Positions 17,183-40,452 of a stretch of DNA of 64,000 bases are shown here, piece after piece. Position 1 is the stretch's first letter. Each line of letters starts with the position of its first letter. The notes beneath the pieces are model-generated. The model searched no databases. It was not told the DNA's origin and was given only the letters and a program-made list of their open reading frames with translations. The stretch is from Arboricoccus pini. GTDB taxonomy: Bacteria > Pseudomonadota > Alphaproteobacteria > Geminicoccales > Geminicoccaceae. The stretch is from positions 1-64,000 of the forward strand of contig NZ_FYEH01000013.1 in assembly GCF_900187945.1 (NCBI RefSeq), given 5' to 3'. A program made the position numbers and the translations under genes.

Positions 17183-17192
17183 TCCCTGGAGC

Positions 17193-17212
17193 CTCCCCGC
17201 ACGGACGGGGAG
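17193..17212. terminator. GC-rich hairpin after the amine oxidase gene
   Basis: CTCCCCG and CGGGGAG form a perfect 7-base stem around a 6-base loop 11 bases after the amine oxidase stop codon. There is no T-run, so termination or mRNA protection is possible but not shown. Confidence 0.35.
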
Positions 17213-17253
17213 CGCTCGCCGCAATCTCGAGCTGGAAGCCAGGAGCCCGCAAG

Positions 17254-18039
17254 ATGGCACGATCCCTGTCGGCGGAGAGCCCGCACGGCTCCAACCAACC
17301 CGATCTCGACACCGAGGCCGTCTGGGAGGCAAGGCGGGATCTCGCGGCCTGCTTTCGCATGGCCGCGCGCCATGGGCTGGAGGAAGGCATCTGCAATCAC
17401 TTCTCGGCCCTGGTGCCAGGTTATGACGACCTCTTCCTCGTCAATCCCTATGGCTACGCGTTTCGCGAGATCACCGCGTCCGGGCTCCTGGTCTGCGACT
17501 TTCACGGCAATGTGGTAGCCGGCGACGGCGAGCCCGAAGCCACGGCGTTCTTCATCCACGCCCGCGTCCACAAGGCCCTGCCGCGGGCGAAGGTCGCGTT
17601 CCACACACACATGCCCTACGCCACCGCGCTCTCGATGACGGAGGGCGATCCTTTGATCTATGCCGGTCAGACCGCGCTCAAATTCTATGGCCGGACCAGG
17701 GTGGATCCCGATTATAACGGCCTTGCCCTCGACGAGCGCGAAGGCGACCGCATCGCCGCCGCGGCGGGCGATGCCGATATCGTCTTCATGAAGAACCACG
17801 GGGTCATGGTCCTGGCCCCCTCAATCGCCGTTGCCTGGGACGATCTCTATTATCTCGAGCGCGCCTGCGAGGTGCAGACGCTGGCACTCTCGACCGGCCG
17901 CCAGGTTCTGCCGGTCGACAGGGAGGTCGCCGAGGCGACGGCACGCCAGATGCAGGGCGGTGGCGACGAATCAGCCAGGCTGCATCTGGCTTCGGTCCGC
18001 CGGACGCTGGACCGCCTGGAGCCCGACTACCGGACCTGA
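17254..18039 (+). CDS. Class II aldolase/adducin family protein
   Basis: A 261-residue zinc-dependent aldolase-fold protein. Typical features are GLEEGICNHFSALVPG near residue 45, the substrate region NPYGYAFREITASGLLVCD, the metal-binding VAFHTHMPYATALSM and the later FMKNHGVMVLAPS. The length and pattern match the FucA/AraD superfamily members annotated as class II aldolase in catabolic operons. It follows the copper amine oxidase by 71 bases on the same strand and could process a product of amine oxidation, but this is inference. The start has an aggagccc site upstream. Confidence 0.85.
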   Translation: MARSLSAESPHGSNQPDLDTEAVWEARRDLAACFRMAARHGLEEGICNHFSALVPGYDDLFLVNPYGYAFREITASGLLVCDFHGNVVAGDGEPEATAFFIHARVHKALPRAKVAFHTHMPYATALSMTEGDPLIYAGQTALKFYGRTRVDPDYNGLALDEREGDRIAAAAGDADIVFMKNHGVMVLAPSIAVAWDDLYYLERACEVQTLALSTGRQVLPVDREVAEATARQMQGGGDESARLHLASVRRTLDRLEPDYRT

Positions 18040-18601: not shown

Positions 18602-19594
18602 ATGATGCGCGAGTTCGGCAAGATTCTGCGCAAGGCTGCGCAGCTCACCCAGTCCGGCAACTTCAAGGAGGCGAGTTCTGCCTTGATGGAGGGGCTGGGC
18701 ACGGCCACGTCCATGCCGCGTACGCGTGAACGGCCGGCCGCCCCGCCGGGGCGCTTTCTCTGGCGCGACCATGACGGTCCGACCGGTACGAGGCGCTACA
18801 AGCTCTATGTGCCGGCCGGCTATCGCGGTCAGGAGATGCCGCTGCTGCTCATGCTGCATGGCTGCACTCAGGCGCCCGACGATTTCGCCGAGGGCACGCG
18901 CATGAACCATCTAGCCGAGGATTTGCAGATCCTGGTTGCCTATCCGGCACAGGCCGGCGCCGCCAACCCGCAACGCTGCTGGAACTGGTTTCGGAAGGAA
19001 GATCAGGCGCAAGGCAGTGGCGAGCCCGCCATCATGGCCGGCATTGTCGAGGATATCATGCGCGACTATGGCGTCGACCGCCGCCGCATCTTCGCCGCCG
19101 GCCATTCCGCCGGTGGTGCTGCCGCCATGGTCCTGGGGCAGACCTATCCCAGCCTCTTCGCGGCGGTCGGGGTGAATGCCGGCCTGCCCTTCAAATCGGC
19201 GACCAATGCCGCCCAAGCCTTATCGGTCATGCGTGAGGGGCCATCCCTCGCGAACCTGCCACCGGGCGTCGGCCATCCGACAATTGTCTTTCATGGGGCC
19301 GTGGACAAGACGGTCAATCCCGCCAATGCCCGCGCGATCATCGCTCAGGCGCTGGGCCCCAATCCCGGCGTGCGCGCCGTGGTGGACGAACTGGGCACGG
19401 GAACCAGGCGCCCGGTCGAGCGGACCCGCTATCTGGATTCGGCAGGCAGATTGCGGGCCGAGCTCTGGCTGGTCGAAGGGCTGGGTCATGCCTGGTCGGG
19501 CGGCGAGACTCTTGCCAGCCACACGGACCCGCGCGGTCCCGATGCCAGTCGCGAGATGCTGCGCTTCTTCCTCGAACAGCCGACCGACAGCTAG
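18602..19594 (+). CDS. PHB depolymerase family esterase
   Basis: A 330-residue alpha/beta hydrolase of the poly(3-hydroxybutyrate) depolymerase (esterase_phb, LpqC-like) family. The core shows LLLMLHGCTQAPDDFAEGT, the lipase box GHSAGGAAAMVL, an acidic segment near VDKTVNPANA and the histidine in GLGHAWSGG. About 70 N-terminal residues without a signal peptide (KAAQLTQSGNFKEAS) precede the catalytic domain, a layout common in proteobacterial intracellular members. Substrates may be short-chain polyhydroxyalkanoates or feruloyl/acetyl esters. ATG 18602 is followed by a second ATG at 18605; either may be used. Confidence 0.87.
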   Translation: MMREFGKILRKAAQLTQSGNFKEASSALMEGLGTATSMPRTRERPAAPPGRFLWRDHDGPTGTRRYKLYVPAGYRGQEMPLLLMLHGCTQAPDDFAEGTRMNHLAEDLQILVAYPAQAGAANPQRCWNWFRKEDQAQGSGEPAIMAGIVEDIMRDYGVDRRRIFAAGHSAGGAAAMVLGQTYPSLFAAVGVNAGLPFKSATNAAQALSVMREGPSLANLPPGVGHPTIVFHGAVDKTVNPANARAIIAQALGPNPGVRAVVDELGTGTRRPVERTRYLDSAGRLRAELWLVEGLGHAWSGGETLASHTDPRGPDASREMLRFFLEQPTDS

Positions 19595-19659
19595 ATCGAA
19601 CACCCAGCACCCAGTCGCATGGCGATCGAGACGCCGGAGATGGCTCTAGCCGCCCGCGC

Positions 19660-20688
19660 CTAAGCCTCGTCCGCCTGCAGGCCCCAGGCATCCGATAAGG
19701 TGAACCCCGTCTGGAAGGGATCGCTCGCATCCATGCGCAGCGTCTCCTTGCCATAGACCCAGCCCCGGCCGGTAATGCGCGGGATGACGGCGGGCCGGCC
19801 TGCCACCGTCGTCTGGCCTATCGCCTCGACCTTGAACATGCCGCCCGTGACCGAGCGCGACCAGCGCGTGTCGCCGATGCCGACAAGACCGCGGGCAAAG
19901 AGGGTGGCAAGGTTGGCGGAGCTGCCTGTGCCGCAGGGCGAACGGTCCACGCGGCTGGCCAGCGTCGTGCAGGTACTGATGACGCCATCAGGCTGCGTGG
20001 AGCGGAACATGACATAGGCGATCTTGTCGATACCGGGCCGCAGCGGATGCTGGACCTTCACCTGCTGACTGATTAGAGCGTGCAGCCGCATGCCGATCTC
20101 GGCCAGGGCTCGACTATTGCCGGCGTCGATCGCAAGGCCGATCTGCTCGACGTCGACGATGGCATAATAGACTCCCCCAAAGGCGATATCGGCCTTGATC
20201 CTGCCCCATTCCGGCGTCTCGACCGGCAAGTCCAGCGACTCGGCAAAGGCCGGCACATTGTCCAGGCTGACCGATCGGCAGCTGCCGCCCTCGACATGGG
20301 CGATGGCCTCGATGCGCCCGGCCGGCGTATCGAGGCGGACCACGGTCTTTTCGCCCGTCGCCTCGACCCGGCCACTCTCGATCAATGCCGTGACGACGCA
20401 AATACAGTTGCTGCCCGACATCGGGTGTGCCCGGTCCGCCTGAAGGACGATGAAGCCCGCATGCGTGTCGGCCGAAGCGGGCGGGGTCAGAAGATTGACC
20501 GACATCTGGGCGAAGCCGCGCGGTTCACGCGTGACGATGCGCCTCAGGCTGTCATCGACCTGATTGATATGGTTCATCTTGTCGAGCAGCGTCGTACCCG
20601 GAATGTCCGGGGCTCCGCCGACGATCACCTTGCCGATCTCGCCCTCGCAATGAACCAGAAGAAGGTCGAGCGTGCGCTCCCACTGCAT
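19660..20688 (-). CDS. Proline racemase family enzyme, Ser/Cys active-site type
   Basis: A 342-residue member of the proline racemase superfamily, which contains proline racemases, 4-hydroxyproline 2-epimerases and trans-3-hydroxy-L-proline dehydratases. The position of the first catalytic cysteine is Ser91 (HPMSGSN), and the second is Cys252 (RSPCGTGSSAN). The Ser/Cys combination differs from the classical Cys/Cys racemase and from the Cys/Thr dehydratase. ATG 20688 gives MQWERT. It is the last gene of the minus-strand operon starting at the Rieske oxygenase and likely acts on a cyclic imino acid or hydroxy-imino acid from betaine demethylation. Specificity is uncertain. Confidence 0.85.
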   Translation of the reverse strand: MQWERTLDLLLVHCEGEIGKVIVGGAPDIPGTTLLDKMNHINQVDDSLRRIVTREPRGFAQMSVNLLTPPASADTHAGFIVLQADRAHPMSGSNCICVVTALIESGRVEATGEKTVVRLDTPAGRIEAIAHVEGGSCRSVSLDNVPAFAESLDLPVETPEWGRIKADIAFGGVYYAIVDVEQIGLAIDAGNSRALAEIGMRLHALISQQVKVQHPLRPGIDKIAYVMFRSTQPDGVISTCTTLASRVDRSPCGTGSSANLATLFARGLVGIGDTRWSRSVTGGMFKVEAIGQTTVAGRPAVIPRITGRGWVYGKETLRMDASDPFQTGFTLSDAWGLQADEA

Positions 20689-20714
20689 TGGGCCGGATTC
20701 CTGTCTTGGGTTGA

Positions 20715-21434
20715 TCAGACGTGGCGGGTGACGCCGCCATCGACGCGGATGTTTTGCCCCGTGATGTAACCCGCATCGTCGGAGAGAAGAAAGGCCGCCG
20801 TTTTCGCGATTTCGGCCATCTTGCCGATACGCTGCATCGGAATGGCTTCCGCCGTGCCGGGCTTGTGCTCCAGGCTGTCGATATAGCCGGGCAGGAGCGC
20901 GTTCATGCGGATATTCTCTGCCGCGTAGCGATCGGCGAAGAGCTTTGTGAAGCTGCCGACGGCCGCCCGGTAGGTGCAGGAAACCGGCAGGGCGTTCGTG
21001 GGCTCGAAGGCCGCAAAAGTCGTGATGTTGAGGAAGGCCCCCTTGCCCTGCTCGAGCATGATGGGGGTGACGAGCCTGGCCATGCGCAGGACGGAGAGGA
21101 CGATCATCTCGTGGCCGCTTAGCCATTTTGCCTCGTCCATCGCGAGGAGGTCGCCCTTGGGCGGGTGGCCGGTATGGTTGACGACGGCGTCGACGCGCCC
21201 GAAGCTGCTCCTGGCCGCGTCGACCAGCCGCTCCAGGTCGAAGGCATTCTCCGCCCGCCCCTCGATGCCGACGCCGCCCATTTCCGCCGCCAGCTCCTTG
21301 GCGCTTGCCGAGGGCGACATCAAGGCCAGTCTGTAGCCGCGCGCGTGCAGTTCACGGGCGATCGCCGCCCCCATGCCTCGGCCGCCGCCCGTAACGATGG
21401 CAACAGGGCTCGCCTGCTCGGACCCGCTCATCAT
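20715..21434 (-). CDS. SDR family oxidoreductase with altered YxxxK site
   Basis: A 239-residue short-chain dehydrogenase/reductase. The cofactor motif VTGGGRGMGAAIA is intact at the N terminus and the C-terminal DDAGYITGQNIRVDGG is classical. The active-site stretch reads SCTYRAAVGSFTKLF: compared with the usual YSASKAAV pattern, three residues including the catalytic lysine appear to be missing after the tyrosine. NAD(P)-linked activity is therefore uncertain. An aaggagg site precedes the ATG-ATG start. It sits between the DAO-like and proline-racemase genes in the betaine-type operon. Confidence 0.88.
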   Translation of the reverse strand: MMSGSEQASPVAIVTGGGRGMGAAIARELHARGYRLALMSPSASAKELAAEMGGVGIEGRAENAFDLERLVDAARSSFGRVDAVVNHTGHPPKGDLLAMDEAKWLSGHEMIVLSVLRMARLVTPIMLEQGKGAFLNITTFAAFEPTNALPVSCTYRAAVGSFTKLFADRYAAENIRMNALLPGYIDSLEHKPGTAEAIPMQRIGKMAEIAKTAAFLLSDDAGYITGQNIRVDGGVTRHV

Positions 21435-21515
21435 GCATTCCTCCTTGGTATCAAACGGAAGAAAGAGGGGTGTGGGAGCTCCGGCGTCAATGTCGGACGC
21501 GCCATGACGATAGGG

Positions 21516-22697
21516 TCAGGCCGCGAGCTCGAGCCCCGCCTCCGCACCCGGCTGGTACCAACCCTGGCGCCGCCGCCAGTCGGCCGGGACGTCCTTGAAT
21601 CGATCGAGCTTCAGGGTCGAGAGGTCGGCGAAGCCGCACTGGCCATCCATGACGAGGTCGCGGATCGCGTGGCCCGTGGCAGGCGAAAGCCCGAAGCCGA
21701 CGCTCGACATCGTGGCGACCGTGACATTCTCGGGCGAGCCCAGCCGTTCAAGGACCGGCCGGCCGTCCGGCGTGTTTTCGATCACACCCGCCCATGAGCG
21801 GATGACCCGGACATGGGCGGCCTTGGGGAAGAGCTCGTAGAGTCGGCGGGCGAGGTTGCGCAGAACGGGCGTGGAGGGACGCGGCGGCTCGCCTTCGGCC
21901 GGCACGTTCTCCAGCCATTCATGCGGGCCGCCGCCATAGGCGAGATTGCCGCGCAGCGTCTGCCGGCCATAGAGCCCGTTGCCATCGACACCCCCCAGGG
22001 GCATGAGCGGCAAGGGCTCGGTGACGATCATCTCGGCCCGTGCCGGCGCCATTGGCAGGTCCACGCCGACCATGGCCAGGAGGCCGCCGCATTGCGGCCC
22101 GGCGGCGACGACGAGCTGGTCGCAGGCAAATCGTCCGCGTGTCGTCAGCACGGCCTTGATCTTGCCGCCCTCGCTCTCGAGGCCGGTCACCGCGGTGTGC
22201 TGGAGAATGCGGCCGCCCAGATCCTGCAAGGCGAAGGCATAGGCCTGAACGGTGCGCTGCGGATTGGCATGGCCGCCAAAATGGAGATGCACGCCGCCAG
22301 CCGCATTGTCGCCGGCCAATGGCACGGCCTCCCGCACCTGCCGGGCGTCGAGCTCGTCCCACTTGAATTGCGGCGGCATCTTGCCCTGGATCATGCGCCG
22401 GTAGAACGTCACCTGGGTGGAATCGACCGAGAAGATGATCCGCTCGCGCTGATACTCGGTCGGATAGCCCAAAAGCTCGTCCATCTGTGGCCAAAGGCGC
22501 TGCTCCTCTTCGAAGAGCGGGCTCATGTAGTGGGTGCAGCCACCGCCATTGCGGCCGGAAGCCTCCCAGCCGACGATCCCCTTTTCGAGGACGAGCACGT
22601 CGACGCCCTCACGCGCGAGCCACCAGGCGGCCGAAAGCCCGGTGACGCCGCCGCCGATGATGATGACCGAAGCCCCGTTGCCGGACATGGCTGCCAT
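21516..22697 (-). CDS. FAD-dependent amine/imino-acid oxidase subunit (DAO family)
   Basis: A protein of about 393 residues in the D-amino-acid oxidase/glycine-sarcosine oxidase family. The FAD motif is SVIIIGGGVTGLSAAWWLA at the N terminus, followed by ASGRNGGG, and the C-terminal FAD-binding region reads SSVGFGLSPATGHAIRDLV. Such proteins are the catalytic beta subunits of HcnC, OoxB/NoxB opine oxidases and D-hydroxyproline dehydrogenases. The gene lies 16 bases after the FAD/[2Fe-2S] subunit gene. An earlier ATG at 22726 would overlap that gene and is a possible alternative start. It probably oxidises an N-methyl or cyclic amino acid. Confidence 0.85.
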   Translation of the reverse strand: MAAMSGNGASVIIIGGGVTGLSAAWWLAREGVDVLVLEKGIVGWEASGRNGGGCTHYMSPLFEEEQRLWPQMDELLGYPTEYQRERIIFSVDSTQVTFYRRMIQGKMPPQFKWDELDARQVREAVPLAGDNAAGGVHLHFGGHANPQRTVQAYAFALQDLGGRILQHTAVTGLESEGGKIKAVLTTRGRFACDQLVVAAGPQCGGLLAMVGVDLPMAPARAEMIVTEPLPLMPLGGVDGNGLYGRQTLRGNLAYGGGPHEWLENVPAEGEPPRPSTPVLRNLARRLYELFPKAAHVRVIRSWAGVIENTPDGRPVLERLGSPENVTVATMSSVGFGLSPATGHAIRDLVMDGQCGFADLSTLKLDRFKDVPADWRRRQGWYQPGAEAGLELAA

Positions 22698-22713
22698 TCC
22701 CAAGGAAGACTGA

Positions 22714-24318
22714 TCAGAGATGGACATTCTCGCCGAGCTGCTCGCGTTCTCGCTCGGTGCCGATGTCCTTGAAGTGGATCCACTGCGTCGGAATGCCGAA
22801 CCAGACGTCCCAGCCGGGCCCCATGTCCGGATGCTCCTCCATGTCCGCCAGCGTCGCCAGCGGCAAGGGTCGGACCGGCGCTCGATAGCCGGCAAGCGGC
22901 ACGGAGCCGGCCTCGGCACCGCTCTCGATCTCGAGCAGCATGGCCACCTGCTCGCGGCAACGCCTGGCCTGACACTGGCCCATGCAGGCCCGGGTCAGCC
23001 GCTTGACCTGATCCTGATTCAAAGGCCCGTCCTTGGCCAGCGTGCCGAGATCGCGTCTGCCCATGGCATTCCAGCGCCAGCCCAGGTAGCGCGGCGGCTG
23101 CACGCCCAGAAGCTCGCCGCGCGTGACTTCCTCGCAGACGCAGGCCAAGACGTCGCGACCACCCGTCGCCAGCATCGTCCGCATCCAAAAGCTGCGATAG
23201 GCAAGCACATCAGGGCCCGCCGGTGCCGGGGCTGCCGAGGATGCTTCAACCTCCCGGCCGAGCGAACGCAATGCCGCGAGGCTGGCGGCCTTACCCTGCG
23301 CTACGGCGTCGCCGCCCAGCCCCGCGCAGTCACCGGCGACATAGATCTGCGGCGCGTCGGTGGCGCCGTCGGCCCCGGCCTTGCCGATCCAGCCGCCACG
23401 TGTCGCATCCAGAACCGGTTTGAGGCCCAGGACGTCGAGAAGCTCGACCACGGGGACCACGCCCAGGGCCAGGCAGACCGTGTCGCAGGCGATCTCGCGC
23501 GAGGTACCCGAGCCATCGACCGCCGAAATTGTGAGACCAGTCACACCCTCTGCATTGCCTCGCGCTTTGAGCGGAACATGGCGGGTGATCAATTCGACCC
23601 CCTTCGCCGCCAATGCCGCCAAGAGGTCTGCCGGACCGGCGGGCTCGGAATGCGCCTCGATGATCGCCGCGACCTCAAGGCCGCGGGCGATGGCCAGCAA
23701 GGCTGTCTTTAGTGCCAGCTCGTCGCTGCCGATGACGACCAGCCGGCGCCCGGCGAAGGCATCGTAGCGGATGAGAAGCGCATGGAGCGCCTGGGCACCC
23801 ATGACCCCCGGCTGATCGGAACCCTCGAAGGAAAGATTGAGGTCGCGAGCACCCGTCGCCAGCACCAGGCGGTCGAAGCTTACGAGCCAGCTCCGGCTCT
23901 CATTGGCGAGACCGACGATCGGGCAAGGCAGCGAGTGGAGGCCCGGGGCCTCGATCCAGGCGCCCCAGGCATAAGTCGAGAGCTCGATCTCCACGCCGAG
24001 CTCGAAGGCGAGGGCCAGTTCCTCGTTGCTGCCCAGCACCTGCTCCAGCATGCGCTCCTGGTTCTGCACCGAGCCATCCATGCGGCCGCCGAACTGGAAG
24101 GGCACGTCCATCCCCATGAGGGCTGGCGAGATTGGATGCTCGTCGACCAGCATGACCGTGACGCCGGCGCGCGCACCCTCGATCGCCGCCGCGATCCCGG
24201 CTGGCCCCGCGCCGATGACCAACAACTGGGCGTGCTTCTCGGGGGCCTTGTACTTGCCGGCGATCGACTTGAAATCGGGCCGCTGGTCGTCGGGCAGCGG
24301 AAAGAAGGGGTAGGTCAT
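22714..24318 (-). CDS. FAD/NAD-binding oxidoreductase with C-terminal [2Fe-2S] BFD-like domain
   Basis: A 534-residue alpha subunit of the HcnB/OoxA/D-hydroxyproline-dehydrogenase type. The N-terminal FAD motif is LLVIGAGPAGIAAAIEGA at about residues 32-49, a second nucleotide motif LVVIGSDELALKTALL is central, and IYVAGDCAGLGGDAVAQG closes the flavin domain. The BFD-like iron-sulfur domain has CVCEEVTRGELL and later CMGQCQARRC. Its last 70 residues (YRAPVRPLPL, then PTQWIHFKDIG) match the family tail. ATG 24318 overlaps the stop of the PLP gene by four bases (ATGA). A small HcnA-like subunit is not seen in the operon. Confidence 0.87.
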   Translation of the reverse strand: MTYPFFPLPDDQRPDFKSIAGKYKAPEKHAQLLVIGAGPAGIAAAIEGARAGVTVMLVDEHPISPALMGMDVPFQFGGRMDGSVQNQERMLEQVLGSNEELALAFELGVEIELSTYAWGAWIEAPGLHSLPCPIVGLANESRSWLVSFDRLVLATGARDLNLSFEGSDQPGVMGAQALHALLIRYDAFAGRRLVVIGSDELALKTALLAIARGLEVAAIIEAHSEPAGPADLLAALAAKGVELITRHVPLKARGNAEGVTGLTISAVDGSGTSREIACDTVCLALGVVPVVELLDVLGLKPVLDATRGGWIGKAGADGATDAPQIYVAGDCAGLGGDAVAQGKAASLAALRSLGREVEASSAAPAPAGPDVLAYRSFWMRTMLATGGRDVLACVCEEVTRGELLGVQPPRYLGWRWNAMGRRDLGTLAKDGPLNQDQVKRLTRACMGQCQARRCREQVAMLLEIESGAEAGSVPLAGYRAPVRPLPLATLADMEEHPDMGPGWDVWFGIPTQWIHFKDIGTEREREQLGENVHL

Positions 24319-25586
24319 TGGATGGCTTCCAGCGCCTCTGAAAGATCGGCGATCAGGTCGTCGACATGCTCGATACCGACGGAGATACGCAGCGAGGAAT
24401 CGTCGACCCCCACTTCCTCGCGCCGCTCGCGCGGCACGGCATAATGCGTCGTGGTGGCCGAGTGGCAGATCAGGGATTCGGTGCCGCCCAGGCTGACCGC
24501 CATGCGAAAGACGCGCAATCGATCCAGGAAGGCGAAGGCCTCGGCCTCGCCGCCTGCGATCTTGAAACTGAAGGTCGAGCCGGCGGCGGCGCATTGGCGC
24601 TTGAAGAGCGCATGGCCGGCCTGGCCCTCCTCAAGCAGTCCCAGATAGGTAACGCTCTTGACCTTTGGATGGGCAGTAAGGAAGGCTGCGACCTTGGCAG
24701 CGTTCTCATTCGCCCGCTCGCTTCGAAGCGGCAATGTCTCGAGCGAGCGCAACAAGAGCCAACAATTATAGGGATCGAGATGACTTCCAAGCGTGGTGCG
24801 CAGCTTTCTGAGCTGACCCACGAGCTCCGCGCGGCCAGAGACGCAGCCGGCCAGGAGATCGCTGTGGCCGCCCGCGTATTTGGTGAGCGAGGTTAGGCAG
24901 AGATCTGCCCCCTGCTCCAGAGGTGATTGCTGGAGCGGGCCCAGGAAGGTGTTGTCGACGACGAGAACGGGCCGCCTGCCCTGGCGCAGCCGGATGGCAT
25001 CCGCGACGCGAACGGTCATCGCGATGTCGGACAGGCCGGCCGTCGGGTTGGCCGGCGTCTCGACCATGATGACGCCGATCGGCCCCGTGCGCATCGCCGC
25101 CTCGGCAGCGGCCATGACCACGCCTTCGTCCTGACCATCGGCAAAGCCCTCGGCCTTGACCTGGAACTGGCGCAAGAGATTATTCAAAAGACCATCGGTG
25201 CCGCCATAGATCGGCCGGCTGTAGAGCACCGTGTCGCCCGGCCGCAGGAAGGCCAGCATCGTCGCCGTGACGGCCGCCATGCCGCTATTGAAGACGGCCG
25301 CATCCTCGGCCTGATCCAGCGCCGCCATCCGGCTTTGCACCATGGCGAGGTTCGGATGGTCGAGCCGCGCATAGATGAAGCTCGTGGCATCGCCCGTCTT
25401 CTCCGGTACCGCGCCATCGAAAAAGGCTGCATGCGCGTCCTTGCCGGCCTGCGCGTTCGGGTAGACGAAGGTCGAGGAGGCATAGATGGGGGGCTTGGCC
25501 GCGCCATGGCCATAAGCCGGATCGTAACCTTGCGAGATCGCCAGCGTCTCGCGCCGGAGCGGCCGGTCGTGTCTCTGGCCGCTCAT
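24315..25586 (-). CDS. PLP-dependent Cys/Met metabolism enzyme (gamma-lyase/synthase type)
   Basis: A 423-residue fold-type I enzyme of the cystathionine gamma-synthase/gamma-lyase and methionine gamma-lyase group. The PLP lysine is Lys236 in [11 protein letters not shown], the ring-stacking tyrosine is Tyr127 in RPIYGGT, Asp211 lies in VVDNTF, and GTESLICH is the usual C-terminal motif. It overlaps the Rieske gene by four bases (ATGA) and the next gene in the same way. Sulfur amino-acid cleavage would be standard, yet its place between a Rieske oxygenase and an imino-acid dehydrogenase points to a specialised elimination of a gamma- or beta-substituted substrate. Confidence 0.88.
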
Positions 25587-26896
25587 GTCAGCGAGGCCGG
25601 GCTGCCTTCGGTCTCGTCGGCCGGCGGTGGCAAGGCGCAAACGCCGCCCGCGACCGGCGCCGCGCCATGGATCGTCGGCACGAAGGGCCGATTCTCACCC
25701 GTCACCACGTTGCGCGCCTCGTGGCAATACCAGTCGACGAAACGCTGGACCAACGATTCGGCCTCGTCGGAATAGCGGCCGGGCTTGTAGCCCACCGAGT
25801 TGACGCCGCGCTGGTTGGTCTCGACGAGATCGCGATCCTGTCGATTGGTGATGTCCCAAAGCTCGATCAGCTGATCGACGGCGTAATCCTGGCCTTCGAC
25901 GGCATCCTTGTGGACGAGCCATTTGCCGGTGACGACCGTTTCGTTCACGTCAGTCGGCATGGAGCTGAAGTAAAACACCATGTCGGCGGTGGCATGGGCG
26001 AAGCTGTGGATCTCGCTCGTCCAGCGGAGCGAGCCCACATCGCCACCTTCCTTCTCGATCAGAAGCTTCTTGACGGCTGGCTCGCCGTCCATGGTCATCG
26101 ACGTCATGCCGGCATTGAGCGGGAAGCGGGCCGCCTGCCACCATTCGCCCTCGGCGGGACCGATCGGCAGCCCGGCTGCCTCCATGCGGGCATTAAAGGC
26201 CAGGAGGCGCGGATCGTCCCCAGCCTCGAAATGCCGCTTGGTAAGTACGGGGAAGGTGACGGCCAGCTCGGGGTGACCAATCGCGCAGTGATAGCACTCG
26301 CGCGCATTCTCCATCACCAGCTTCCAGTTGCCCTTCTCCACCAGCGTCACCGTGGCCGCGACCTTGGCGTTCTTGATGTTGCAGGCCTCCAGCATCGGCC
26401 CGGCCTCGCGGCGAAAGGCCTCAAAGTCAGGCGCTTCCTCGGCCAGGCAGGCATAGATGCAGCCACCGGCCGTCTCGACATGGATCGCTCCCAGGCCATG
26501 CTGCGCCTTGTCGAAATCGGCCGGCATGCGGCCCGCATGGATCAGCCTGCCGTCGAGATCGAAAGTCCATTGGTGATAGGGGCAGACGATCCGGGAGCCC
26601 TTGCCGTGCCCCTCGGCGCATAGCTCTGCGCCACGATGCCGGCAGCTGTTATGGAAGCCGCGAATGACGTCGTCGCGGCCGCGGACGATGACGATCGGCG
26701 ACTTGCCAACCGTGAGCGCTAAGCGGGCACCGGGCGTTGGCAGTTCGCATTCAAAGCCGACCAGCAGCCAAGTGCGCCTGAATATGTGCTCGAGATCGAA
26801 GGCGAAGACCTCGGGATCGTTATAGAACGCCTGCGGCAGGCTGTAGCCCGTCCGGCGTTGATCCAGCAAAGCGGCGACTTTGGCAAAAGCGACCAT
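25583..26896 (-). CDS. Rieske oxygenase alpha subunit, quaternary-ammonium demethylase type
   Basis: A 437-residue terminal oxygenase. The Rieske cluster ligands are Cys85-x-His87 (CRHRG) and Cys105-x2-His108 (CPYHQW). The mononuclear iron site reads E200-CY-H203-CAIG-H208; the bridging residue is Glu instead of the usual Asp, a hallmark of CntA, GbcA and stachydrine demethylase, which act on carnitine and betaines. ATG 26896 follows ggagatagg. It is the first gene of a six-gene operon and divergent from a LysR gene. No ferredoxin reductase partner is encoded nearby. The substrate is probably an N-methylated amino acid. Confidence 0.9.
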   Translation of the reverse strand: MVAFAKVAALLDQRRTGYSLPQAFYNDPEVFAFDLEHIFRRTWLLVGFECELPTPGARLALTVGKSPIVIVRGRDDVIRGFHNSCRHRGAELCAEGHGKGSRIVCPYHQWTFDLDGRLIHAGRMPADFDKAQHGLGAIHVETAGGCIYACLAEEAPDFEAFRREAGPMLEACNIKNAKVAATVTLVEKGNWKLVMENARECYHCAIGHPELAVTFPVLTKRHFEAGDDPRLLAFNARMEAAGLPIGPAEGEWWQAARFPLNAGMTSMTMDGEPAVKKLLIEKEGGDVGSLRWTSEIHSFAHATADMVFYFSSMPTDVNETVVTGKWLVHKDAVEGQDYAVDQLIELWDITNRQDRDLVETNQRGVNSVGYKPGRYSDEAESLVQRFVDWYCHEARNVVTGENRPFVPTIHGAAPVAGGVCALPPPADETEGSPASLT

Positions 26897-26999
26897 ACCT
26901 ATCTCCAGCAAGGCTGGACGATGGCATTGTCACAAGATCCATCTTAGAAAAAATCGTATTTTCAGATCGGCCCATCGAATCTGATCAAAGCGTGCACTC

Positions 27000-27034
27000 G
27001 ACGGCCAGCCTGCGCATTATTTAGGCTGGCCGTC
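27000..27034. promoter_or_regulatory. 11-base inverted repeat between Rieske operon and lysR
   Basis: GACGGCCAGCC and GGCTGGCCGTC are perfect arms around a 13-base AT-rich spacer (tgcgcattattta). It lies in the divergent region, about 100 bases upstream of the Rieske gene and 46 bases before the likely lysR start. It could be a LysR operator or a leader hairpin of the lysR transcript. Confidence 0.55.
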
Positions 27035-27079
27035 CGGGCAGCAATGCGAGGGCGATCCTTCGAGGGAGGCTCAAATATT

Positions 27080-28021
27080 TTGCTGCGCCGCCATCTCCTA
27101 CCCCTGAACGCCCTGCGCGCCTTCGAGGCGGTCGCCAGCCAGCTCAGCTTCACCGGTGCCGCCAAAGCGCTCCACATCTCGCAAAGCGCGCTCAGCCGCC
27201 ATGTGAGCAAGCTCGAGGAATTGCTCGGACAGCAATTACTGGAGCGCCGGCCGCACGGGCTGGTCCTCACCAGAGCCGGCGCCTCGCTCCTGCCCGTGCT
27301 GCGCAAATCGTTTGACCGGCTGGAAGAGGTCTTGAGCACGATCGAGCAGGAGGGCCAAGGCAAGCCGCGGACGCTGCGGGTGCACATGCCGCCCTCCTTC
27401 CTCCACCAGCAGGGCCTGCAGATCCTGAGGGAGTTCCGCGCCCTGGTGCCCGATATCGTTATCGACGTCTCGAGCAGCAACGGCACCGGCCTGCCCACCC
27501 GCGACCTTGACGTCGCCGTCGTCTACGACCGGCCGCAGGCCGGCGATGCCGTGCGTGATCTCCTCTGGATGACGCGCGAGCAGCCTGCCTGTGCACCCGA
27601 CGTTGGCCGCCAGGCGGAGGGCCTGAGCCTACAGGAATTCCTTCTCGGCCAGCAACTCATCCACGTGAAGATGGAGGGCATGGATTCGAGCCTGCACTGG
27701 GCGAACTTCGCCCGCAGCCAGGGGCTTGCACTGCGCACCGACTCCGGCCTTGCCTTCGAGACCGCCACACTGGCGGTGCAGTTCGCCATGGGCGGCCTGG
27801 GCGTACTCCTCGTCGATACCGATCTCTTCGCTCGCGAACTTGCCGAGGGCCGGCTGGTCACACCGTTCGCCGAGACTTATGAGAGTGGCTATGGCTATTA
27901 TCTCACATTGCACCCCGAAGACATGGCCGACCCGGCGATAGCCCTGTTTCGCTCCTGGATGATCGAGCGTTTCGCCCGGGCCCGCCGGGAACGCCCGCGA
28001 GGGTCTAGCCTGCCATCATGA
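27080..28021 (+). CDS. LysR family transcriptional regulator (GcvA-like)
   Basis: A regulator of about 313 residues. The N-terminal helix-turn-helix reads LNALRAFEAVASQLSFTGAA then ALHISQSALSRHVSKLEELL, typical of GcvA-like LysR proteins, and the rest is a periplasmic-binding-like effector domain. TTG 27080 is favoured by alignment of LLRRHLLPLNALRAF with family starts and a gggagg site; ATG 27044 is an alternative. It is divergent from the Rieske operon and is its most likely regulator. Its last 17 bases overlap the convergent VOC gene. Confidence 0.87.
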   Translation: MLRRHLLPLNALRAFEAVASQLSFTGAAKALHISQSALSRHVSKLEELLGQQLLERRPHGLVLTRAGASLLPVLRKSFDRLEEVLSTIEQEGQGKPRTLRVHMPPSFLHQQGLQILREFRALVPDIVIDVSSSNGTGLPTRDLDVAVVYDRPQAGDAVRDLLWMTREQPACAPDVGRQAEGLSLQEFLLGQQLIHVKMEGMDSSLHWANFARSQGLALRTDSGLAFETATLAVQFAMGGLGVLLVDTDLFARELAEGRLVTPFAETYESGYGYYLTLHPEDMADPAIALFRSWMIERFARARRERPRGSSLPS

Positions 28022-28543: not shown

Positions 28544-30571
28544 TTATGGGTGGGCCGGCGTCAGCCGCCCGAGTTCGGCCCGCGGGATGTGGCAGCGTAT
28601 GCCGTGATCATCCTCGCTCTGCATGGGGGGCTCGGTCGTCTCGCAGATTTCACCAACCTTGCGCGGACAGCGCGTCTGGAAGACGCAGCCCGAAGGTGGG
28701 TTGAGCGGGCTCGGAATCTCGCCCTTGAGCTTGATCCTCTCGTTGCGGCGCCCGGTATGGGAGGGAACGGCCGAAAGGAGCGCTTCCGTATAGGGATGAT
28801 GTGGCCCGGTAAAGACCGCCTCCGCCGGACCCAGTTCCATCAGGCGGCCGAGATAAAGGACGGCGATGCGATCGGCGAGATAACGGACCACGCCCAGGTC
28901 ATGCGAGATGAAGACATAGCTCACCTGCCGCTGGTCCTGGAGCTCGGCCAGAAGGTTGAGAATCGCCGCCTGGACCGAGACGTCCAAGGCCGAGGTGGGT
29001 TCGTCGCAGACGACGATGCGCGGATTGCCGGCGAAGGCGCGGGCGATCGCCACGCGCTGCTTCAAGCCACCCGAGAGCTGCCTGGGCCGCAAGGCCAGAT
29101 GGCGCTCGGTCAGCCGCACGGCGCCAACAAGGCGCATCATTTCCTCGCGCAGCCTGCGGCCCCGCAGACCCGCCAGCCGGCTGAGCGCGCGACCGATGAG
29201 ATGGCGGACCGTATGCGCGCGGTTCAGGGCCGAATCCGGATTCTGGAAGACAATCTGCATCGCCTTGACGTGCTCGGTCGGCCGCTCGGCGGCCGTCGGC
29301 GCCAGCGCCTCGCCGTCGAGCTCGATGCGACCGCCGGCGTCGGGAGCGACCAGACCCAGAAGCAGCCGGGCCAAAGTCGTCTTGCCGCTGCCCGATTCGC
29401 CGACCAGGCCCAACGTCTGGCCGGGCTGCAGCGTCATCGACACGTCGCGTACGGCATGCAGTGGCTGGCCTCCGACATGATAGGTCTTGGACACGGCATC
29501 GAGTGCCAGTGCCGGCTGCCGCGCGGCGGCAGGGGCCGAGACGACGACTGGCCGCAGATCCTTGCCCGCGATGAAGTCGACATGGTCGTGATAATGACAG
29601 GCGCTTTGCCGGCCGCCCAGGTCATAAGCAGGCGGGGATTCGTCGTGACAGCGCTGGCGCGCCATGCTGCAACGCGGCGCGAAGCAACAGCCCTTGATGA
29701 TGGCCCCCGGAGGCGGCAGGAAGCCGGGGATCGTCTCCAGCGCACTCTTCCGCTTGGTGAGCCCTGCTTTGGGCAGGCAGCGCAGCAGGCTGGCCGTATA
29801 GGGGTGGCGCGGGTCGCTGAAGACCTGCTGGGCTGGCCCTTCCTCGACCAGGTGGCCGGCATAGAGCACGCCCACGCGATCGCAGATGCTGGCGATCGCA
29901 CCCAGATTATGGCTGATGAAGAGGATCGAGCTGTTGAAGTCGCGCCTGAGGTCCGCCACGAGGTCCAAGACCTCGGCCTCGACCGTGGCATCGAGGCCCG
30001 TCGTGGGCTCATCCAGGATCAGGAGACTGGGATCCTTGGCCAGCGCCATGGCGATGACGACACGCTGCTGCATGCCGCCCGAGAGTTGATGCGGATAACT
30101 GGCCATCACCCGGGCTGGCCCTGAGATCTGCACGCGGGCCAGCATGGCGTGCGCTCGTTCGACCGCTTCCTGGCCACCTTGACCCAGCACCTCGAACACC
30201 TCGAGCAATTGCCGGCCGACGGTCATGGATGGGTTGAGCGCCCGGCCGGCATCCTGATAAACCATCGAGATATCGTGGGCGCGCATGTGGCGGAGGGCCG
30301 GCGCATCGAGCCGGCGCAGGTCACGCCCGGCGACCTCGAGCTTGCCGCCCAGCACATGCCCGTTGCCGGGCAGTGTGTGGAGCACGGTGAGTGCCACGGT
30401 CGACTTGCCGCAGCCAGATTCGCCCACCAGGCCATAGGCCTCGCCGGGCTCGATACGGATGGAGACCTTAGAGAGAACGCGCATGTCCCGGCCGCGCGTG
30501 CGATAGGCCACATCGACCTTGTCGAGCAGCAAAGCGGGCGGCGGGCTCTGCTCCATCTGGATCATGCTCAT
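28544..30571 (-). CDS. Peptide/opine ABC importer, fused double ATPase (DppD-DppF type)
   Basis: A 675-residue protein carrying two complete ATPase domains. The first has Walker A GESGCGKST, signature LSGGMQQRVVIAMAL and Walker [13 protein letters not shown], followed by an oligopeptide-transporter C-terminal domain with a Cys cluster (CCFAPRCSMARQRC). The second has GESGSGKTT, LSGGLKQRVAIARAF and IVVCDEPTSALD with a similar tail (CVFQTRCPRK). The pair powers uptake through the two permeases encoded upstream. ATG 30571 overlaps the DppC stop (ATGA). Single-chain fusions occur in this class but differ from the separate ATPases of the second importer in this window. Confidence 0.92.
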   Translation of the reverse strand: MSMIQMEQSPPPALLLDKVDVAYRTRGRDMRVLSKVSIRIEPGEAYGLVGESGCGKSTVALTVLHTLPGNGHVLGGKLEVAGRDLRRLDAPALRHMRAHDISMVYQDAGRALNPSMTVGRQLLEVFEVLGQGGQEAVERAHAMLARVQISGPARVMASYPHQLSGGMQQRVVIAMALAKDPSLLILDEPTTGLDATVEAEVLDLVADLRRDFNSSILFISHNLGAIASICDRVGVLYAGHLVEEGPAQQVFSDPRHPYTASLLRCLPKAGLTKRKSALETIPGFLPPPGAIIKGCCFAPRCSMARQRCHDESPPAYDLGGRQSACHYHDHVDFIAGKDLRPVVVSAPAAARQPALALDAVSKTYHVGGQPLHAVRDVSMTLQPGQTLGLVGESGSGKTTLARLLLGLVAPDAGGRIELDGEALAPTAAERPTEHVKAMQIVFQNPDSALNRAHTVRHLIGRALSRLAGLRGRRLREEMMRLVGAVRLTERHLALRPRQLSGGLKQRVAIARAFAGNPRIVVCDEPTSALDVSVQAAILNLLAELQDQRQVSYVFISHDLGVVRYLADRIAVLYLGRLMELGPAEAVFTGPHHPYTEALLSAVPSHTGRRNERIKLKGEIPSPLNPPSGCVFQTRCPRKVGEICETTEPPMQSEDDHGIRCHIPRAELGRLTPAHP

Positions 30572-31458
30572 CCGGTCAACGCCCCGTGAATGCCTTCGGC
30601 CAGGAGATTGACGCCCACCACGAGAGAGCCGGTGGCCCCGGCGGCAAAGGCCACCGTCCACCAGTAGCCGCCAGCGATCACGCCATAGTTCTCCGAGATC
30701 GCGAGGCCCCAGTCGGGCGAAGGCGGCTGAATGCCAAAGCCCAAGAAACTCAAAGAGGCGACAAAGAAGATGGCGTAGCCGAGACGGACCGTCATCTCGA
30801 CCAGGATCGGCGGCAGGACGTTGGGGAGAATCTCCACGAACATGATGTGAAGGGCGTTCTCGCCGCGAATCTGAGCCGCATCCACATAATCGAGATCGCG
30901 TTCGCTCTGGACGGCCGCGCGCACCGTTCGGCCGATGAGGGGCGTGAAGACGAGGCCGATAACGACGATGACGGCAGGCGTGGAGGGTCCCAGCGCCACC
31001 AGGACCAGAAGTGCCACGACGATGAGCGGCAACGCCACCATGACCTCGATGACGCGGCTGACGAGCATATCGACAATGCCGCCGAAATAGCCGGTCACCA
31101 GCCCGACGATCGTACCGCAAATCGTGCCGACGATGGTGGCAAGCGGCGCGATCGTCAGGATGTCGCGCGCGCCGACAATGACGCGAGAGAATACATCGCG
31201 GCCGAGCTGGTCAGTGCCGAACCAATGGAGAGCATCGGGAGGCCCTAGCGTGTTCATCAGGTCGTCGGCGAAGGGGTCCAGGGGCACGACCCAGGGGCCG
31301 AAGATCGCGCAGCAAGCCCAAAAACCCGTAATGATCGCACCGACCCAGAAGGTGCCGGAACGAAACAGAAGGCTCCAACGGCTGCGGATCCGGGGCTCCT
31401 CGAAGACGATCGGCGTCGAGCCGGGCTCGGCATCGAGCATCGTGGTCTGGGCGGTCAT
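30568..31458 (-). CDS. Peptide/opine ABC importer permease, DppC type
   Basis: A 296-residue inner-membrane permease. About six membrane helices follow a hydrophilic N terminus. HWFGTDQLGRDVFSRVIVGAR and the EAA-loop region (DYVDAAQIRGENALHIMFVEIL) that docks the ATPase are typical of DppC/OppC. The C-terminal SFLGFGIQPPSPDWGLAI is a family signature. It overlaps both neighbours by four bases, so the three membrane and ATPase genes are translationally coupled. Confidence 0.93.
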   Translation of the reverse strand: MTAQTTMLDAEPGSTPIVFEEPRIRSRWSLLFRSGTFWVGAIITGFWACCAIFGPWVVPLDPFADDLMNTLGPPDALHWFGTDQLGRDVFSRVIVGARDILTIAPLATIVGTICGTIVGLVTGYFGGIVDMLVSRVIEVMVALPLIVVALLVLVALGPSTPAVIVVIGLVFTPLIGRTVRAAVQSERDLDYVDAAQIRGENALHIMFVEILPNVLPPILVEMTVRLGYAIFFVASLSFLGFGIQPPSPDWGLAISENYGVIAGGYWWTVAFAAGATGSLVVGVNLLAEGIHGALTG

Positions 31459-32417: not shown

Positions 32418-32420
32418 GCC

Positions 32421-34082
32421 TCAGACGACCGATGCGTTCTGCAGGAAGAGCTGCGATAGGGCGGTTCCCGTTATACCTTTGACCTTCTTCGTCTGCGGGA
32501 TGAGGAAGTCGTAGAAATAGCCGAAGATGACCGGCACCTCGTCATTGAGGAGCGTCTCGATCTGCTTGGCGGTCTTGCGCTGGGTGTCGAGATCCACGGC
32601 CGCCACATAGTCCGCCACCAGCTTGTCATAGGCGGGATTCTTGAAGTGCGCCGAGTTCCAGCTGCCATTGCTGACAAGTGGGGCCGAGAGGATGACGTTG
32701 GGCGTCCCTCGATGACCATAATCCGTGATGCCGAGCTCACTATCCAGCCAGGGCGAGTTGCCATAGGTCGCGCTGCCATAATAGGCACCTTGATCCATCA
32801 CGTTGAGATTGATCTTGATGCCGATCTCGGCGGCCGCGTTCTTGATGAGCACGGCGTAGGTGGGAATCTCCTGGTATTGCTCCGTCGTCAGCGTCACCTC
32901 GAAGCCGTTCGGCACGCCAGCCTCGGCCAGGAGCTGCTTGGCTTTGGCGATGTCCTTCTGGCGCTGCGGTACGCTCCGGTCGGTCGAGGGATAGACGGGC
33001 GCCATCGGGCTGTCATTGCCAAGGTCGGACATGCCCCGAAACAGGCCTTTGACGATGGCCTGTCGATCCAGGGCCAAGGCCAGTGCCTGGCGGACCCGCT
33101 TGTCCTTGAAGTTGGCGGAATCGGTCCGCATGTGGACCTGGCGGTGCGTGGCGGCCTTGATCCGGTTGATCTCGATGTCGGGGTTGCTCAAGATGGCCTG
33201 GCCGCCTTGGACCACGACCTGCTGAAGCACGTCGACCTGGCCGCCCATGAGGGCCAGGATTTGCGGCTGCTGGTCGGCGTAGAAGCTGAACTCCAGCCGG
33301 TCGGGGAGAACGGCACCGCCCCAGTAATCTGGGTTCCTGACGAAGCTTGCTCCGACCTTGGGTGTATACTTCTCCATCCTGAAGGGCCCCGTCCCGTCGA
33401 AGCTCTTCTCATAGCCGCCATCGAAGGAGGCCGGCAGAATGATGGCGTTGTAATTGTCGGTCGAGACGGAATAGGGGAAATTACCGTTGGGCGCATCCAG
33501 GTGGAACTCGACCGTCAGGTCGTCGACTTTCTTGGTGTTGCCCTTGGAGAGCACGCCGCTGAAGACCGAGAGCGCGTTCGAGCTGTTGGCGGGATCAGCG
33601 AGACGGTCGAACGTGGCGACGACATCGTCCGCCGTCAGCGTCTTGCCGCTGTGGAACTTGACCCCCTGGCGCAGCTTGAAGGTCCAGACCGAGCCGTCCT
33701 TGTTGGGCTTCCAGGATTCCGCCAGCATCGGCTTCAAGATCAAGTCCGGACCGTCATAGATCAGGAAATCGCCCAGCTGCTGGATGATGATGAGCCCACC
33801 CGCATCGGCGATTGCCACCGGATCGATCGAGGCGGTGGGCACGGTCAGGCCGACGCGGATCGTGCCACCCGGATTGCCTGCCGCACGGGCGGCGGAGGGG
33901 AAGAGCGAGAGACCGCCACCGACAAGCCCGCTCATGAGAGGGGCCGACAGACCGAGGACGGCACCCCGCTGGAAAAAGCCTCGGCGGCTAAGCCGGCCCG
34001 CGTTGAACTCGTCGACGAGATGGTTCGCGACCTCGGTGCATCGCCGCCGCAGAGCGTCGCGATCGTCCTGTTGATGACCCAT
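32421..34082 (-). CDS. ABC substrate-binding protein, family 5 (peptide/opine)
   Basis: A 553-residue solute-binding protein of the SBP_bac_5 group. A long N terminus contains a twin-arginine motif SRRGFFQRGAVLGL followed by a hydrophobic stretch and AARAAG cleavage region, so export through Tat is likely. The mature part shows LAESWKPNKDGSVWTFKLRQ, then GVKFHSGKTLTADDVV and RQALALALDRQAIV, all family signatures. ATG 34082 has a gggggaag site. It is the first gene of the import operon and divergent from the biuret-hydrolase-like gene. The ligand may be a peptide, opine or betaine-type compound. Confidence 0.92.
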   Translation of the reverse strand: MGHQQDDRDALRRRCTEVANHLVDEFNAGRLSRRGFFQRGAVLGLSAPLMSGLVGGGLSLFPSAARAAGNPGGTIRVGLTVPTASIDPVAIADAGGLIIIQQLGDFLIYDGPDLILKPMLAESWKPNKDGSVWTFKLRQGVKFHSGKTLTADDVVATFDRLADPANSSNALSVFSGVLSKGNTKKVDDLTVEFHLDAPNGNFPYSVSTDNYNAIILPASFDGGYEKSFDGTGPFRMEKYTPKVGASFVRNPDYWGGAVLPDRLEFSFYADQQPQILALMGGQVDVLQQVVVQGGQAILSNPDIEINRIKAATHRQVHMRTDSANFKDKRVRQALALALDRQAIVKGLFRGMSDLGNDSPMAPVYPSTDRSVPQRQKDIAKAKQLLAEAGVPNGFEVTLTTEQYQEIPTYAVLIKNAAAEIGIKINLNVMDQGAYYGSATYGNSPWLDSELGITDYGHRGTPNVILSAPLVSNGSWNSAHFKNPAYDKLVADYVAAVDLDTQRKTAKQIETLLNDEVPVIFGYFYDFLIPQTKKVKGITGTALSQLFLQNASVV

Positions 34083-34222
34083 GGCGCTTCCCCCGCTCGA
34101 TTTCAGTTCATTAGACCGAGTGAAAGCAAGCCACATGCCGGCCAGCGGCGCAACCGTGGTCGGCTGGCCCACCTGTTGCTTTGAAACGGGGCCGATAATG
34201 GCAGCACCCGGGGAAACGCGGC

Positions 34223-34918
34223 ATGTCCCAAACGATCGCCTCCTGGCCCTATGCGTGGCCCTATGATGGCAGTCTCGATCCCGCCAACACAGCTTTGATC
34301 GTCATCGACATGCAGACCGATTTTTGCGGCATTGGCGGTTATGTCGATCGCATGGGCTACGATCTGGCGCTCACCCGCGCGCCGATCGAGCCGATCAGGA
34401 CGCTGTTAGAAGCGATGCGGGCCCAGGGCTTCCACATCATTCATACCCGCGAGGGCCATCGACCGGACCTCTCGGATCTGCCGGCCAACAAACGCTGGCG
34501 CTCGCGCCAGATCGGTGCCGGCATCGGCGATCCTGGACCCTGCGGCAAGATCCTGGTGCGCGGCGAGCCCGGCTGGGAGATCATCGACGAGTTGAAACCG
34601 CTCCCTGGCGAGATCATCATCGACAAACCCGGCAAGGGCAGCTTTTGCGCGACCGACCTCGAGCTCATCCTGCGCACGAAGGGCATCTCTAATTTAGTCC
34701 TTACGGGCATTACGACCGATGTCTGCGTCTCGACGACGATGCGCGAGGCCAACGACCGGGGCTTTGAGTGCCTCATCCTCGAAGACTGCTGCGCTGCAAC
34801 CGATCCCGCCAATCACAAGGCGGCAATCAACATGGTGACCATGCAGGGCGGCGTCTTCGGTGCCGTCGCAACGAGCGGCATTCTCCTTGAAGCGCTCACC
34901 AGCCGAAAGGCAGCCTAG
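34223..34918 (+). CDS. Cysteine hydrolase, biuret hydrolase-like (isochorismatase fold)
   Basis: A 231-residue cysteine hydrolase. The triad is Asp29 (VIDMQTDFC), Lys138 (KPGKGSF) and Cys168 (TDVCVSTTM). Several stretches ([40 protein letters not shown]) strongly resemble rhizobial biuret hydrolase as I remember it; RutB-like ureidoacrylate hydrolases are the next relatives. The expected reaction splits biuret or a close ureide to allophanate and ammonia. It is divergent from one importer's binding protein and stands 169 bases before the genes of a second importer with two amidases. The substrate is inferred. Confidence 0.85.
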
Positions 34919-35087
34919 GCAGGAAGATGGTCAAGGATTGCTCATCCGCCCCATTAAGATGAACGTCCTATGGGCAGACCCCACGAGGGTGCCGCGATCC
35001 TTCAACGAATGTTCAAGTTGGCATGGGCATTGCTACTCTGGCGGCACCCCGCCGTCCGCTTAAGGAAGTCCAGCCACGTCCACTTCG

Positions 35088-36098: not shown

Positions 36099-36102
36099 GC
36101 CG

Positions 36103-40413: not shown

Positions 40414-40452
40414 TCTTTCGCCCCCGCCCTTTGACCTTTTGGAATTTCGCGC

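Follow-up and report, generated by a model that had tools for sequence, protein, structure and literature searches.

A conserved alphaproteobacterial operon joins a predicted N-demethylation ladder to a gamma-lyase-family enzyme

We have analysed the first 64,000 nucleotides of contig NZ_FYEH01000013.1 of the alphaproteobacterium Arboricoccus pini (assembly GCF_900187945.1); this whole stretch is called the window below. The subject is an operon in which genes related to N-demethylases enclose a gene for a pyridoxal-phosphate (PLP) enzyme of the Cys/Met-metabolism family. Open reading frame (ORF) calls in the window place six minus-strand genes within 26896–19660, roughly where the original prediction had put a six-gene operon, and their families hold: a Rieske oxygenase, the PLP enzyme, alpha and beta subunits of a flavin adenine dinucleotide (FAD) enzyme, a short-chain dehydrogenase/reductase (SDR) and a proline-racemase-family protein (ProR). 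The conserved unit, however, consists only of the first four genes together with a divergent LysR-type regulator gene. Overall, this is a conserved variation on betaine catabolism that has its own gamma-lyase-family enzyme and that we did not find described; the earlier observation is partly confirmed. The probable role of the operon is to break down an N,N,N-trimethyl-alpha-amino acid whose gamma carbon carries a leaving group. This reading is built on the gene content, the synteny, the alternative third demethylases, a separate clade of PLP enzymes and, near subsets of the loci, genes for one-carbon (C1) metabolism and quaternary-amine transport.

Genome contigs were scanned with the beta subunit, one of two short conserved peptides being required, and this gave 253 relatives. 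The best 80 loci (given L numbers) were kept; their beta-subunit matches are 66–73% identical to the window protein in the best segment. Gene presence in these loci was scored by tblastn with set identity cut-offs. Rieske, alpha and beta genes occur together in 55 of the 80, and the PLP gene is present in 52 of those 55. All 52 full-core loci have the genes on a single strand in the order Rieske, PLP, alpha, beta, and the set always fits into 9 kb. It is important to note that the presence of the alpha subunit in these loci follows from the selection, while the collinearity is an observed result. Upstream DNA was sufficient in 49 loci, 40 of which have a divergent LysR gene, and a GbcB-type reductase gene is inserted after the Rieske gene in 6/52. 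Since all core loci are collinear, the four-gene core with its divergent LysR gene is a conserved operon, far beyond chance. A matching Rieske gene is missing from 25 of the 80 loci, many of them cut by contig ends; L106 has LysR and PLP genes and no matching Rieske gene. According to record titles, the carriers belong mostly to Sphingomonadales, Caulobacterales, Acetobacterales and Rhizobiales-type genera, and a plasmid of Novosphingobium capsulatum holds an annotated example of the core. Rieske relatives at E 1e-110 occur in eight of 385 genomes of the class, and three of the eight (A. pini itself, G070 and G383) have the core. One title may be wrong: L048, named Mycobacterium sp. KBS0706, has many gene clusters in common with the Inquilinus loci L047 and L049. 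In L104 and L107 (Ancylobacter) the alpha/beta pair stands with an AraC/GlxA-type regulator and a GbcAB-like pair and no PLP gene, and L104 also has ABC transport genes by clustering. This arrangement is perhaps a glycine-betaine form of the alpha/beta system.

The Rieske protein carries the motif E200-C-Y-H203-C-A-I-G-H208. The bridging glutamate, which the original prediction had pointed out, is indeed present and is shared in the alignment with 3n0q, 3vca/4qup and the carnitine oxygenase 6y8j, and E200, H203 and H208 give the ExxHxxxxH pattern of betaine- and carnitine-type Rieske enzymes. The closest solved relatives are 3n0q, 3vca and 4qup, of which we take the last two to be stachydrine demethylases. 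Against the GbcA model NF058607 (cut-off 670 bits) the window protein scores 432.8 bits, and three other operon Rieske proteins score 404.8–424.2 bits. The alpha subunit has 534 amino acids and no GCV_T folate-binding domain. It reaches 127.3 bits against TIGR01372 (cut-off 1164), and the beta subunit 117.7 bits against TIGR01373 (cut-off 529). The two proteins are distant relatives of SoxA (in its middle part) and SoxB. The earlier view of them as a two-subunit flavin dehydrogenase gives way here, since a role as second demethylase in the ladder suits the pair better.

A third demethylase was sought in those 50 core loci whose sequence runs on for at least 1.5 kb past the beta gene, counting SoxB within 2.5 kb and DAO2, an N-methyl-amino-acid oxidase, within 1.2 kb on the same strand. 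One of these genes closely follows beta in 43 of the 50 loci (SoxB in 24, DAO2 in 19) and the two never occur together. Neither is present in the remaining seven, three of which have a SoxA relative on the other strand. In L090 both SoxB (686 bits, cut-off 529) and SoxA (1379 bits, cut-off 1164) pass their models. By gene content, 43/50 loci would therefore encode three demethylases, for the NMe3, NMe2 and NHMe forms of a substrate. Taken together, the genes would make up a full ladder from NMe3 to NH2 plus a gamma-lyase-family enzyme, a parallel to glycine betaine clusters with the PLP enzyme as an addition.

The PLP protein scores 537.8 bits against the PRK07049 model NF005455 (cut-off 504) and 338.1 bits against the methionine gamma-lyase (MGL) model TIGR01328 (cut-off 549.7). 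The MGL score is higher than those for O-succinylhomoserine sulfhydrylase (289 bits) and cystathionine beta-lyase (up to 253 bits). In the alignment with solved MGLs, K236 aligns with K211, and equivalents of Y59, R61, Y114, D186, S208, T210, K211 and R375 are kept, if the roles and numbering of these MGL residues are as we assume. Position Cys116 of MGL is Gly129 in the window protein and Cys in u122775. Relatives at E 1e-80 occur in 31 of the 385 class genomes; A. pini and two further carriers of the operon are among them. When 52 operon proteins (one from the window, 51 from the loci) are placed in a tree with 27 non-operon proteins, the two sets form one clade each under midpoint rooting. 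The two groups are separated by 17 alignment columns, one of which is a gap column. Among these, column 75 comes directly after the R61 equivalent, column 232 directly before the S208 equivalent, and column 264 (T264) aligns with MGL D241. Because the operon clade is separate and these columns discriminate it, the comparison points to a substrate that would differ from that of the ordinary relatives. Around non-operon PLP genes, neither the demethylase nor the betaine-transport queries match anything in 13 of 16 neighbourhoods; the other three, from one genome family, again have a dimethylglycine-dehydrogenase-like gene close by.

Taking these parts together, the following route can be proposed. 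The Rieske enzyme would remove the first methyl group as formaldehyde (NMe3 to NMe2) and the FAD alpha/beta pair the second. A sarcosine-oxidase-type enzyme would remove the third; this would be SoxBDAG or an N-methyl-amino-acid oxidase encoded beside the operon in relatives and an unlinked 55% homologue in A. pini. The PLP enzyme would come last, because it presumably needs a primary amine: it would form an aldimine with the free amine and expel the gamma substituent, giving 2-oxobutyrate and ammonia. What we infer from this chemistry is the sequence of the reactions, elimination at the gamma and not the beta carbon, and the identity of the substrate. The original prediction of N-demethylation and elimination on a betaine-type substrate, with an unexpected PLP enzyme in second place, is supported by the comparison of genes.

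Glyceryl-N,N,N-trimethylhomoserine is the best-fitting abundant natural compound of the required type known to us. It is possible, and we propose it tentatively, that this deacylated head group of diacylglyceryl-N,N,N-trimethylhomoserine (DGTS) is the substrate; the operon might then be the missing route of head-group breakdown, giving glycerol, 2-oxobutyrate and ammonia. In the lyase step the ether bond would be broken and glycerol freed. Betaine lipids stand in for phosphatidylcholine in many algae and non-flowering plants. If the proposal is true for DGTS, the flow of carbon and nitrogen from algae, mosses and lichens to bacteria gains genes, markers and a test. Even with another betaine as substrate, a conserved ladder with a built-in gamma-lyase-family enzyme across Alphaproteobacteria would be a pathway unnamed in the literature searched. 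A 2023 review lists DGTS in green algae, lichens, mosses, ferns and some fungi, and calls its ether-cleaving enzyme unidentified (PMC9892843). Our searches covered the open-access literature, subscription papers being mostly outside their scope. Among the matches listed we found no description of a demethylation ladder combined with a gamma-lyase, in line with the earlier suggestion of a new combination, and no described enzyme that cleaves the glyceryl-homoserine ether. BtaA (PF11899) has no match in the A. pini genome, so the organism is not a DGTS maker of the known type. Canavanine gamma-lyase was considered as an analogue and not used. Some record titles name habitats that agree with DGTS as a source (lichen, bog, palsa, bloom, pond); these words were read without a control and were set aside.

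Several observations weigh against a ladder that feeds a gamma-lyase, or against the proposed substrate. In L041, L062 and L063 the Rieske, alpha and beta genes occur without the PLP gene, so the demethylation ladder also exists without it. Some loci, L060, L061, L073, L089 and L097 among them, have no matching Rieske gene within 10 kb; since long-flanked loci such as L060, L061, L073 and L097 lack this gene, the alpha/beta pair also works in other settings. In the order to which A. pini belongs, 3 of 31 genomes have a Rieske relative at E 1e-60, A. pini included, and the other two have no core nearby. A. pini itself has no reductase gene in the operon and no third demethylase beside it, its 55% DAO2 homologue being on contig C15. 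DAO2 leans towards N-methyl-tryptophan oxidase. The PLP tree carries no support values, and 2 of the 17 discriminating columns show the window PLP protein at odds with most operon proteins. At three non-operon PLP loci of one genome family (L158, L164 and L165) a 53% PLP relative adjoins an aromatic amino acid lyase gene and, judged by the start of its sequence, a urocanase-like gene, and these neighbours point to histidine chemistry there. An AceE-like E1 gene beside 8/52 operons speaks for the route, as it would suit a 2-oxoacid product, and MdeB, for which we found no supporting paper, is presumably a precedent. By record titles, however, seven of these eight loci are Sphingomonas or relatives, and the four proteins tested score 154–159 bits, with a pyruvate dehydrogenase cut-off of 860. 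No glycerol- or homoserine-specific gene was found among the genes examined, and the substrate rests on chemistry. Finally, the proposed route does not account for the SDR and ProR.

It is unlikely that the operon performs ordinary glycine betaine demethylation, with the PLP enzyme aiding only methionine/homocysteine or C1 metabolism and not acting on the demethylated substrate. A Rieske enzyme would act first, Sox would come third in relatives, PurU and BCCT/OpuAC genes are found in subsets, and demethylation would be stepwise, as in aerobic glycine betaine catabolism (gbcAB, dgcAB, soxBDAG, purU, BCCT). Glycine betaine clusters comprise gbcAB, soxBDAG, purU and BCCT, which matches the Rieske, SoxB/SoxA, PurU, BCCT and OpuAC genes seen here, and the second-step enzyme is an NADH:flavin oxidoreductase plus DUF3483 pair (PMC12093977). 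Moreover, the alpha/beta pair lies beside a GbcAB-like pair without a PLP gene in L104 and L107. The operon differs in its SoxA/SoxB-like second step, its LysR regulator and its Cys/Met-type PLP enzyme, which is inside the operon in 52/55 loci and belongs to a distinct clade. Its Rieske proteins also fall short of GbcA (405–433 bits in the four examined, cut-off 670), whereas those of L104 and L107 reach 542–543 bits. In addition, the glycine-betaine-type genes of A. pini lie elsewhere: a GbcAB-like pair on contig C23, whose Rieske protein is likewise below the GbcA cut-off with 422 bits, and a DUF3483 DgcB-like gene with SoxB/SoxA on contig C8. A sulfur-containing betaine, which the original prediction had named as an example, is possible, and an O-linked homoserine betaine is an equally good or better fit. 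Methionine betaine, which would be demethylated to methionine and split by gamma-elimination into methanethiol and 2-oxobutyrate, seems to us a rather improbable substrate. The logic of ladder and lyase applies to it equally, and MGL is the closest named family to the PLP enzyme after PRK07049. The glycine at the place of Cys116 and the missed MGL cut-off (338 of 549.7) argue against it, and methionine betaine is a rare natural product.

We regard as quite improbable a single six-gene pathway for a proline-type or otherwise substituted betaine, in which ProR would serve as epimerase or dehydratase and the SDR as dehydrogenase. One strand, short gaps, a ProR Ser/Cys dyad like that of the hydroxyproline epimerase 4lb0 and a Rieske enzyme related to the solved demethylase 4qup would agree with it. 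ProR, however, is found in 0/80 loci and the SDR in 0/52 core loci, the SDR lacks Tyr/Lys, and proline-type rings would probably offer the PLP enzyme no gamma leaving group. An aromatic betaine such as hypaphorine (tryptophan betaine), ending with N-methyl-tryptophan oxidase and a beta-eliminating PLP step, is very improbable. The best score of DAO2 is with N-methyl-L-tryptophan oxidase (153 bits in L055 and 181 in the A. pini homologue, cut-off 257), but SoxB takes the place of DAO2 in 24/50 loci. To our knowledge, the Cys/Met PLP family does not perform C–C beta-elimination of tryptophan. We consider it highly improbable that the operon converts a histidine betaine (hercynine or ergothioneine) into a histidine by demethylation and that the PLP enzyme catalyses a side step. 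Here the argument comes from L158, L164 and L165, which also have a dimethylglycine-dehydrogenase-like gene (DAO, FAO_M and GCV_T domains) nearby, and whose genomes hold an unlinked Rieske relative of 51–52% identity. Yet the aromatic lyase and the urocanase-like protein have no match in the 80 operon loci at E 1e-10. These three loci are perhaps a separate N-methyl histidine route.

The proposed catabolism of a trimethylated amino acid with a gamma leaving group can also be set beside other known systems. The stachydrine and hydroxyproline betaine pathways (Stc2, 4HypE) resemble the operon in the relatedness of its Rieske protein to 3vca/4qup and, in this window only, in a proline-racemase-family gene; they differ in that the racemase is not conserved with the operon core. 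We know of no PLP gamma-lyase in those pathways. With MGL and PRK07049 enzymes the operon PLP protein shares the fold family, the PLP-binding residues and a score above the PRK07049 cut-off, but it belongs to a clade of its own, has Gly in place of MGL Cys116 and is linked to N-demethylases. Heterotetrameric sarcosine oxidase SoxAB is a distant relative of the alpha/beta pair, although the alpha subunit is without GCV_T and the scores (127/1164 and 118/529) lie below the cut-offs.

The last two genes of the operon look private to the window and outside the conserved core. At E 1e-5 none of the 80 loci gives a match to ProR. The SDR has none in the 52 core loci, and its four weak matches fall in three loci without a matching Rieske gene. 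The same six-gene order was not seen a second time in the 80 loci, nor in the 385 class genomes searched for Rieske, PLP and ProR singly (some match neighbourhoods there were left unread). Because the SDR and ProR are absent from the conserved core loci (0/52), they are best left out of the core claim, and the idea of a single six-gene pathway is not upheld. The SDR has SCTYR where 2hq1 has YxxxK and so does not look like a classical SDR dehydrogenase; 4o6v is also without YxxxK. In ProR, MSGSN and SPCGTG align with 4lb0/4q2h, which predicts the Ser-Cys dyad of hydroxyproline 2-epimerase. A Ser/Cys dyad is named for an epimerase cluster in PMC4113996. ProR neighbourhoods were read at eight places, one of them in the A. 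pini genome; L178 has a hydroxyproline-type set by Pfam (DHDPS, DAO, ALDH), and in three of the eight there are nearby SDRs of about 30% identity.

Near the 52 core operons we found PurU in 9, FdhA/FdhD (formate dehydrogenase) in 7, GbcB-type reductase in 6, BCCT in 5 and OpuAC in 2. Relatives of the window family-5 binding protein (58–67% identity) lie beside the operon in 9/52 loci (Ancylobacter, Jiella, Aurantimonas, Fulvimarina and others). All these neighbours tend to come from particular lineages, and the seven FdhA loci, to take one case, are without exception Sphingomonadales by record titles. In L017, a Mesorhizobium mediterraneum plasmid, a 51% Rieske relative and a VanB-type reductase adjoin a 62% relative of the window binding protein, without the PLP gene. 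A tally of flanking genes covered 90 of 113 listed ORFs, and OpuAC (3) is the only betaine-specific family among the best 25 of 63 families. Secreted-looking hydrolases (CocE in 3/52 loci, DUF3089 in 5/52 and alpha/beta-hydrolase-like proteins without a Pfam match in 6/52) were considered as a sign of an acylated substrate and dropped, these being common genes. A fatty-acid-desaturase-family gene recurs near the operon in L034, L036, L038, L039, L040, L045, L046, L052, L053, L055, L067 and L078, accompanied in 11 of these 12 loci by a PhnD-like binding protein; presumably it is comparable to MocD of rhizopine catabolism.

Table 1. Genes of the operon and its surroundings in the window
Feature	Position	Strand	Basis
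Rieske oxygenase (GbcA/stachydrine-demethylase-like)	25583..26896	-	Family models, solved relatives, active-site alignment; with alpha and beta in 55/80 loci
Cys/Met-metabolism PLP enzyme (PRK07049 family)	24315..25586	-	Curated model, MGL alignment, operon clade
FAD alpha subunit (Pyr_redox_2, SoxA-like middle part, no folate domain)	22714..24318	-	Pfam and curated models
FAD beta subunit (DAO family, SoxB-like)	21516..22727; ATG at 22727, 22697 or 22688	-	Pfam and curated models
SDR-fold protein, Ser/Arg replacing the usual catalytic Tyr/Lys	20715..21434	-	Outside the conserved core
Proline-racemase-family protein (ProR), Ser/Cys dyad, like hydroxyproline epimerase 4lb0	19660..20688	-	Outside the conserved core
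LysR-type regulator (GcvA-like), divergent	27044..28021	+	Pfam and curated models
Dpp/Opp-type ABC transporter, tandem ATPase domains	ORF 28544..31120, true start downstream of 31120	-	Translation; clusters with ABC ATPases of other loci
Two ABC permease genes	31455-32417 and adjoining part of ORF 30568-32211	-	First by clustering with permeases of other loci, second from translation
Family-5 solute-binding protein	32421..34172	-	Pfam

The ATGA overlaps noted earlier hold for two junctions, Rieske/PLP and PLP/alpha. Alpha and beta overlap by 14 bp or are separated by 16 or 25 bp, depending on the choice of the beta ATG, and the later genes stand apart, with gaps of 81 bp (beta–SDR) and 26 bp (SDR–ProR). 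A simple consensus scan of 19500–27200 gave no minus-strand promoter-like site, and six terminator-like sites as compared to 3.5 ± 2.1 in shuffles. Past the LysR gene, Dpp/Opp-type ABC transporter genes span 28544–34172 on the minus strand. A second Dpp-type ABC transporter (by clustering) lies at 34223–43245 on the plus strand with an isochorismatase-family hydrolase and two amidases, and this region is perhaps an amide-degrading island. A copper amine oxidase adjoins a class II aldolase-family protein at 15188–18039 (plus strand). A polyhydroxybutyrate-depolymerase-type esterase at 18602–19594 (plus strand) converges on the 3' end of the operon, and hydrolases of other families adjoin the operon in some relatives.

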